Shown here: positions 28,976-30,086 of the stretch, piece by piece | Position numbering within the stretch: position 1 is the stretch's first letter | Layout: the number at the start of each line of letters is the position of its first letter | Source of the DNA: Armatimonadota bacterium | GTDB taxonomy: Bacteria; Armatimonadota; UBA5829; JAUSEB01 | Length of the DNA: 61,303 nt | Assembly: GCA_030649165.1 (NCBI GenBank) | Contig: JAUSGG010000243.1 | Span: 1 to 61,303 of the forward strand | Direction: 5' to 3' | Program-made: the position numbers and the translations under genes | Notes under the pieces: model-generated | Seen by the model: the letters and a program-made list of their open reading frames with translations, nothing else | Database searches by the model: none | Told to the model about the DNA's origin: nothing

Positions 28976-29629
28976 ATGCAGAAAGCCAAACTTAACGCAC
29001 AAATCAGAAGTACACATAGCAAGAGCGAACTGAAGCAAATACGGAGAACCGGCCAGATTGCGGCGAGCGTTTACGGGCACGGATTCGAATCGATGTCGAT
29101 TTCCGTCGACGCAGCCGAGTTGGCCGCCGCCGTCAGGACTGAGGCAGGGCTCCACGCCTTGATCGATATGAGCGTGGATGACGCGCCTAAGACAGCCAGC
29201 GGAGTGGTAGTGATAAAACAGATCCAAAAGGACCCGGTCTCGCGACGGCTGCTGCACGTTGATTTTCAACGCGTGCTGATGACTGAGAAGCTGAGCACCG
29301 AGACACCGATCGAACTGGTCGGGGCGGCGATAGGCGTGCACGAGGGAGGAGTCCTCGAGCATGTTATGAGGAGCCTGCATGTTCGATGCCTGCCGGACCA
29401 GATTCCCTCCCATATCGATCTCGATGTCTCGGACCTGGATATCGGCCACGCTTTGCACGTGAGCGATCTCCCGCTCCCCGCGGGAGTCGAGCCGCTCGCG
29501 CAGCCCGACGAAGTCGTCGTTGCGGTAAGGCAGCCCACTATCCACGTTGAGGTCGCCGCGGAAGAGGCTGCCCTGGCGGAAGGCGCGCCTGAAGTCACCG
29601 GGGAACAGCCATCCGCGGCAGAACAGTGA
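28976..29629 (+). CDS. rplY: 50S ribosomal protein bL25 (CTC form)
   Basis: 217 residues: an N-terminal L25 5S-rRNA-binding domain (KAKLNAQIRSTHSKSELKQIRRTGQIAASVYG ...) and a C-terminal TL5/CTC beta domain (VLEHVMRSLHVRCLPDQIPSHIDLDVSDLDIGHALHVSDL), ending in an acidic tail. This two-domain form is typical of CTC proteins, which bind 5S rRNA in the large subunit. AAGGA lies 8 nt before the ATG. Own promoter at 28916. The stop is followed by GTGGTTAGTGGTTAG repeats. Confidence 0.95.
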   Translation: MQKAKLNAQIRSTHSKSELKQIRRTGQIAASVYGHGFESMSISVDAAELAAAVRTEAGLHALIDMSVDDAPKTASGVVVIKQIQKDPVSRRLLHVDFQRVLMTEKLSTETPIELVGAAIGVHEGGVLEHVMRSLHVRCLPDQIPSHIDLDVSDLDIGHALHVSDLPLPAGVEPLAQPDEVVVAVRQPTIHVEVAAEEAALAEGAPEVTGEQPSAAEQ

Positions 29630-29673: not shown

Positions 29674-29697
29674 AGCGTCCCGATGCATCGGGACGCT
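29674..29697. terminator. 24-bp perfect palindrome, possible bidirectional terminator
   Basis: A perfect inverted repeat centred on GATGCATC with arms AGCGTCCCGATG, between rplY (plus) and the small-peptide transcription unit (minus). There is only a short TTTA tract on the plus strand, so factor-independent termination is uncertain. Confidence 0.55.
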
Positions 29698-29717
29698 TTA
29701 CCGATCCTTCGGTAGCA

Positions 29718-29757
29718 GAGCGGGCCTGTCCCGAAAATCGGGAAGTGTCGCTGCCGA
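29718..29757. repeat. Nested inverted repeat (TTCGGTAGC ... GCTGCCGAA)
   Basis: Outer arms TTCGGTAGC/GCTGCCGAA enclose an inner TCCCGA-AAA-TCGGGA hairpin. A similar TTCGGTAGC...GCCGAAGC arrangement occurs at 37555-37583. Confidence 0.6.
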
Positions 29758-29800
29758 ACGAGGCAACCACAACCCCTGGTGCAGGCCGAAGTATTGGGTC

Positions 29801-29896
29801 CTATTTCGCTCTTTTCTTCTCCTCCTGCAGTCGTTCCCTGCGCCTTTCCTCGGCGCGCTTGCGAGCCCGCCTCAGTTCTTTCTTGCGTATTTTCAG
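29801..29896 (-). CDS. Candidate 31-residue highly basic helical peptide, CTG start
   Basis: A minus-strand frame of 31 codons, CTG AAA ATA CGC to TAG, giving a peptide made almost only of Lys, Arg, Glu, Ala and Leu (starts KIRKKELRRARKRAEERRRE). It would form a single charged helix, perhaps RNA- or ribosome-binding. Evidence that it is real: an excellent promoter at 29928-29956 only ~25 nt upstream and GGGGGTGAG at 29902-29910, 5 nt before the CTG. CTG starts are rare, but another strong case occurs in this window at 58341. I do not recognise a family. The alternative GTG frame (to 29670) has no protein-like composition. Confidence 0.5.
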   Translation of the reverse strand: MKIRKKELRRARKRAEERRRERLQEEKKRAK

Positions 29897-29927
29897 TTTG
29901 TCTCACCCCCAGTATGGATTACGACTG

Positions 29928-29956
29928 ATTCTAGGCCGACGCCGCCCGGTTGTCAA
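29928..29956 (-). promoter_or_regulatory. Strong sigma-70 promoter of the small-peptide unit
   Basis: Minus strand TTGACA (29951-29956), 17-nt spacer, TAGAAT (29928-29933). No annotated-size gene lies downstream on this strand, so it must drive the 31-codon frame or a small RNA of roughly 100-250 nt. Confidence 0.85.
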
Positions 29957-30030
29957 CGATCCCCCGGGTTATTGGTTGACCGCTTGGTGACTGTCGTCGG
30001 GCTGGTCCCACTCCCAACTGGACTTCGCTC

Positions 30031-30086
30031 CCTCGTCCCCTCCGACTCCTTCGACTCCTTCGACTCCTCCGACTCCTTCCACTCCT
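30031..30086. repeat. CGACTCCTT tandem repeat
   Basis: About five near-copies of CGACTCCTT in a row, just upstream of the pilin genes. The region 29957-30155 otherwise shows nothing I can identify. Confidence 0.85.

Follow-up and report, generated by a model that had tools for sequence, protein, structure and literature searches.

A conserved miniprotein gene with a putative CTG start in one order of Armatimonadota, and its relationship to DUF6800

Background

The ribosomal peptides bS22 and eL41 are short and helical, with positively charged residues making up 55-65% of their sequences (PMC10085706). Initiation from weak start codons has also been described. The weak start of rpsT has been tied to autoregulation (PMC10931766), while IF3 represses noncanonical starts and sigR, with its GTC start, provides a precedent (PMC5472188). 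A further group of small basic proteins is the Pfam family DUF6800 (PF20607). A literature search on DUF6800, or on CTG starts in Armatimonadota, returned nothing relevant.

Here, a locus from an Armatimonadota bacterium is compared with these systems. The window is the whole stretch of DNA that was analysed (61,303 nucleotides). An earlier note on this stretch had proposed that a near-consensus minus-strand promoter drives either a 31-residue basic peptide or a small RNA.

The gene and its expression signals

The features of the locus are as follows.

29928-29956, minus strand: sigma-70-type promoter TTGACA-17-TAGAAT with 11/12 consensus matches
29903-29910, minus strand: Shine-Dalgarno (SD) sequence GGGGGTGA, based on the sequence and on an SD in 14/14 orthologs
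29894-29896, minus strand: putative CTG start codon, present at codon 1 in 14/14 orthologs and aligned with the ATG, GTG or TTG of homologs outside the order
29801-29896, minus strand: 31-codon gene LKIRKKELRRARKRAEERRRERLQEEKKRAK with TAG stop, based on orthologs, codon-position differences and a predicted helix
29671-29700, no strand assigned: inverted repeat containing a 24-nt perfect palindrome (29674-29697), a putative terminator
29699-29718, minus strand: one copy of the dispersed 20-nt hairpin repeat CTGCTACCGAAGGATCGGTA, which has 40 genome copies

The promoter hexamers TTGACA (29956-29951) and TAGAAT (29933-29928) lie on the minus strand with a spacer of 17 nt; when the 110 nt upstream were shuffled 300 times, no shuffle scored as high. 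Judged by its sequence, this would be a strong housekeeping promoter. The reading frame is closed on its 5' side, where an in-frame TGA is followed by GAC AAA and then by the CTG, and it ends at a TAG stop (29803-29801). The initiator CTG is shown as L in LKIRKKELRRARKRAEERRRERLQEEKKRAK and would be read as fMet. Lys or Arg occupies 17 of the 31 residues of the product, the net charge is about +11, and structure prediction returns a single helix spanning residues 5-30 (mean pLDDT 87). The miniprotein gene is separately promoted and monocistronic.

The earlier note had placed the gene opposite rplY and had used this adjacency as an argument for function, and neither point holds. Since rplY (28976-29629, plus strand) ends at 29629 and an intergenic stretch separates it from the facing miniprotein gene, the orientation is convergent and not antisense. 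The adjacency itself is accidental, as the neighbours of the gene differ between families. The perfect palindrome that had been noticed at 29674 is present, and the inverted repeat around it is possibly a terminator between the two convergent genes that is not specific to the miniprotein. Of the hairpins downstream of the gene, smaller ones are located at 29699-29714 and 29729-29743; the element at 29699-29718 is a dispersed repeat and no part of the gene. The 40 copies of CTGCTACCGAAGGATCGGTA in the window genome have 0-1 mismatch and lie in both orientations (reversed-pattern control, 0), related repeats of about 65 nt are also found there, and the repeat is possibly a REP-like element. Elsewhere in the window, a simple repeat of CTCC/TTCGACTCC units (30028-30086) lies upstream of pilin-like genes.

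Conservation within the order

A protein search covered 61 related genomes. The order to which the window belongs yielded the miniprotein gene in 14 genomes, the window included, so that the whole arrangement of promoter, SD and CTG-initiated basic frame recurs in 13 other genomes, well beyond what chance would give. The promoter matches the consensus at 11-12 of 12 positions in all 14 genomes, with a spacing of 17-18 nt, and lies 29-37 nt before the start. The SD (GGGGGT, GGAGGT or AGGAGG) is likewise found in 14/14 genomes and begins 13-16 nt before the CTG. Frames of 30-38 codons open at the aligned CTG in the majority of the order's genomes, usually with a stop shortly upstream. A start upstream of the CTG was considered and is ruled out in most orthologs by this in-frame stop.

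Codon usage within the gene bears on the identity of the start. The invariant Leu8 is encoded freely among the 14 orthologs (CTG in 4, CTC in 4, CTA in 3 and CTT in 3) while CTG is fixed at codon 1, which suggests that codon 1 is the initiator. Because the 14 genomes share ancestry, the CTG represents one conserved state and not 14 independent ones; neutral third positions turned over during the same time that it stayed fixed. Pairwise differences among the 14 orthologs are 0.338, 0.230 and 0.558 at codon positions 1, 2 and 3, respectively, and dN has a median of 0.27, most of the dS values being saturated, a pattern indicating that selection acts on the reading frame.

A separate observation concerns codon 2, which is always A-initial in the CTG orthologs (AGA in 10, AGG in 1 and AAA in 3), whereas Arg elsewhere in the gene is often encoded by CGN. 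An A-initial codon 2 suits initiation.

Within the same order, the family profile search gave no confident match in G006, G008 and G016, and in G005 and G013 the gene was not found by profile and is absent beside their sbcC homolog. Consequently, the gene may be dispensable.

Distribution across Armatimonadota

The family was searched with a profile (A1) and then with a second profile of 58 ungapped rows (A2). Matches at E<=0.05 were obtained in 177 of 397 genomes, 175 within the phylum, whose identity as Armatimonadota follows from named loci, and 2 outside, corresponding to homologs in about 175 of the 291 Armatimonadota genomes. The conservation of the frame in relatives, for which the earlier note had called, is thus seen both in the order and phylum-wide. 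Among the 92 members whose start position was read, ATG is used by 57, CTG by 14, GTG by 11 and TTG by 10 (the starts of G019 and G021 being placed by alignment), and CTG occurs only in the window's order. The family shares the core MR(I/V)RxKE(L/I)RxxRxR, which forms one predicted helix and is followed by tails that range from KKK to >100 residues. Long K/A/P-rich tails (AAKKPAAKK-type) are found in members of other classes. Gene neighbours vary from family to family; in family f2 of the order the gene is convergent with an sbcC-like gene, and the neighbourhood comparison found no ribosomal operon kept beside the gene in Armatimonadota. Outside the phylum, a 38-residue homolog MGKHKKVERMKEIGRRRKRREERLKERIREAKAAVKGK with an ATG start and AGGAGG was observed in G312 (C10, about 39320 onward; L175); it scores 47 bits, above 500 of its 500 shuffles.

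The existence of a conserved, CTG-started miniprotein gene is well supported by these sequence comparisons. The miniprotein reading of the earlier note is borne out by the conserved frame, CTG start, SD and promoter, together with the homologs that start with ATG, GTG or TTG. Gene finders that accept only these three codons cannot call a CTG start, and a conserved, probably well-expressed protein would therefore be missed in the whole order. The locus also offers a natural case in which all orthologs found keep CTG as the initiator; noncanonical starts are rarely documented.

Relationship to DUF6800

The window protein has no Pfam match above cut-off (searched up to E 10) and no NCBIfam match, the window genome contains no PF20607 match, and PDB profile searches returned no solved structure that matches the window protein by sequence. 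A weak DUF6800 match was first seen for one Armatimonadota member. The protein of G133, itself a family member, scores 25.7 bits against PF20607, above the curated cut-off of 25 bits, while G184, G045, G023 and G219 are near the cut-off yet below it. Comparison of the family with a DUF6800-like set using hhalign gave a probability of 93.8%, with G298 as one row of that set.

Since such proteins are compositionally biased, each candidate was compared with 500 of its own shuffles. The G298 match to DUF6800 failed this test and was dropped as a link. For the DUF6800 proteins of G365, G433, G436, G410 and G432, which belong to another phylum, 0/500 shuffles reach the family-HMM score; the family-HMM scores of bS20 and bS21 do not beat every one of their own 500 shuffles. 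By the profile comparison and the shuffle test, the N-terminal helix is homologous to that of DUF6800 beyond composition. DUF6800 is the closest known kind of protein, and the family of the window protein is a shortened, one-helix, diverged branch related to it.

DUF6800 occurs in 11 of the 43 genomes of the other phylum. In six genomes of one family there (G365, G431-434 and G436; loci L217, L252, L254, L255, L259 and L260) the gene lies directly behind tuf-rpmG; several of the six loci also have tRNA-Trp close by, and secE is seen in G365. Other DUF6800 members of that phylum sit elsewhere. The tuf-rpmG neighbourhood provides a functional hint for this uncharacterised Pfam family. DUF6800 thereby acquires a relative that is spread across a phylum, and translation as a hypothesis to work with.

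Proposed function and alternatives

It is proposed that the product is probably a small, basic, single-helix protein that docks on rRNA and serves as a lineage-restricted ribosomal or assembly protein, with a weak start that caps its output. First, the strong housekeeping promoter would produce a transcript with a short leader. Next, translation would begin at the CTG behind the strong SD, as suggested by the conservation of both. The protein would then dock as a helix in rRNA, a step to which its charge, size, gene layout and DUF6800 context point, and would belong to the ribosome or its assembly in this lineage alone, much as bS22 and eL41 are ribosomal peptides. Finally, output is probably limited by the conserved weak start even though the promoter is strong, and this start may permit control by IF3 or feedback, as seen for the UUG of rpsT and the GTC of sigR.

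A role at the ribosome is plausible and gains indirect support from the location of DUF6800 behind tuf-rpmG and from the SD/weak-start layout of bS20. Within the order, bS20 starts with TTG in 12/13 genomes and GTG in 1/13, and bS21 apparently starts with TTG in 13/13 (loci L177-L202), so weak starts seem usual for small 30S proteins of the order. The bS20 leader contains an SD very similar to GGGGGTGA and has a similar weak-start layout. A more detailed form of the proposal, in which the product is an undescribed one-helix ribosomal protein of much of Armatimonadota, related to DUF6800, with CTG in one order and start selection under IF3 control, is tentative.

Identity with known small ribosomal proteins was also considered. 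COX24/bS22 was dismissed, as neither the window genome nor any CTG genome is matched by PF08213 (COX24_C), and among 31 genomes no match exceeded the cut-off. bS20 (PF01649) and bS21 (PF01165) were rejected because they are encoded by separate genes in the window genome and show no relation in the family HMM.

The very basic character of the protein would also suit a histone H1-like peptide that condenses the nucleoid, or DNA or RNA more generally, instead of a ribosome component. The histone-like tails of the long forms make a DNA-binding role possible, and they weakly match histone H1-like families, with E values of 0.0004 and 0.012 and scores well short of the cut-offs. However, these matches fall in the low-complexity tail, outside the conserved helix; the short forms, including that of the window, have no tail, and the DUF6800 relatives lie behind tuf-rpmG. 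This explanation is considered unlikely. Somewhat harder to sustain is a regulatory or stress-linked miniprotein that binds RNA polymerase, an RNase or another partner, with the CTG acting as a switch that is released when IF3 activity falls. The conserved noncanonical start with a strong SD fits such a switch, and sigR offers a precedent for IF3 repression (PMC5472188), but the promoter has the appearance of a constitutive one, and the genes next to it include no conserved partner.

The small-RNA option of the earlier note, in which the frame is incidental, draws on the strong promoter, the downstream hairpins and a fold z-score of -2.14. It is very improbable given that the frame, start and SD are kept in 14 genomes with third-position-biased substitutions, that homologs with ATG, GTG or TTG exist, that one of the hairpins downstream belongs to a repeat dispersed over the window genome, and that the Rfam search at gathering threshold gave only tRNAs. 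A short frame behind a strong promoter might finally be a leader peptide controlling a downstream gene, which is scarcely credible here, as no co-directional downstream gene is conserved and the gene is convergent with rplY in the window and with the sbcC-like gene in family f2.

Comparison with known systems

The preferred reading, a small ribosomal or ribosome-assembly protein, can be set against three kinds of known system. Like the members of PF20607, the window protein is small and basic with an RxRELRRRRHRRE-type N-terminal helix. In contrast to them, it has the first helix only: the frame ends after 31 codons and the C-terminal segment of DUF6800 (about 20-25 residues) is absent, its APW motif belonging to the members in the other phylum. 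Compared with bS22 (AURKAIP1-COX24) and eL41, the window protein is similarly short, with 17/31 Lys/Arg and a predicted helix. Although CTG is a different codon from the start of rpsT (bS20, UUG), infC or sigR, and the miniprotein is not homologous to bS20 or bS21, a weak start behind a strong SD is common to all of these genes.
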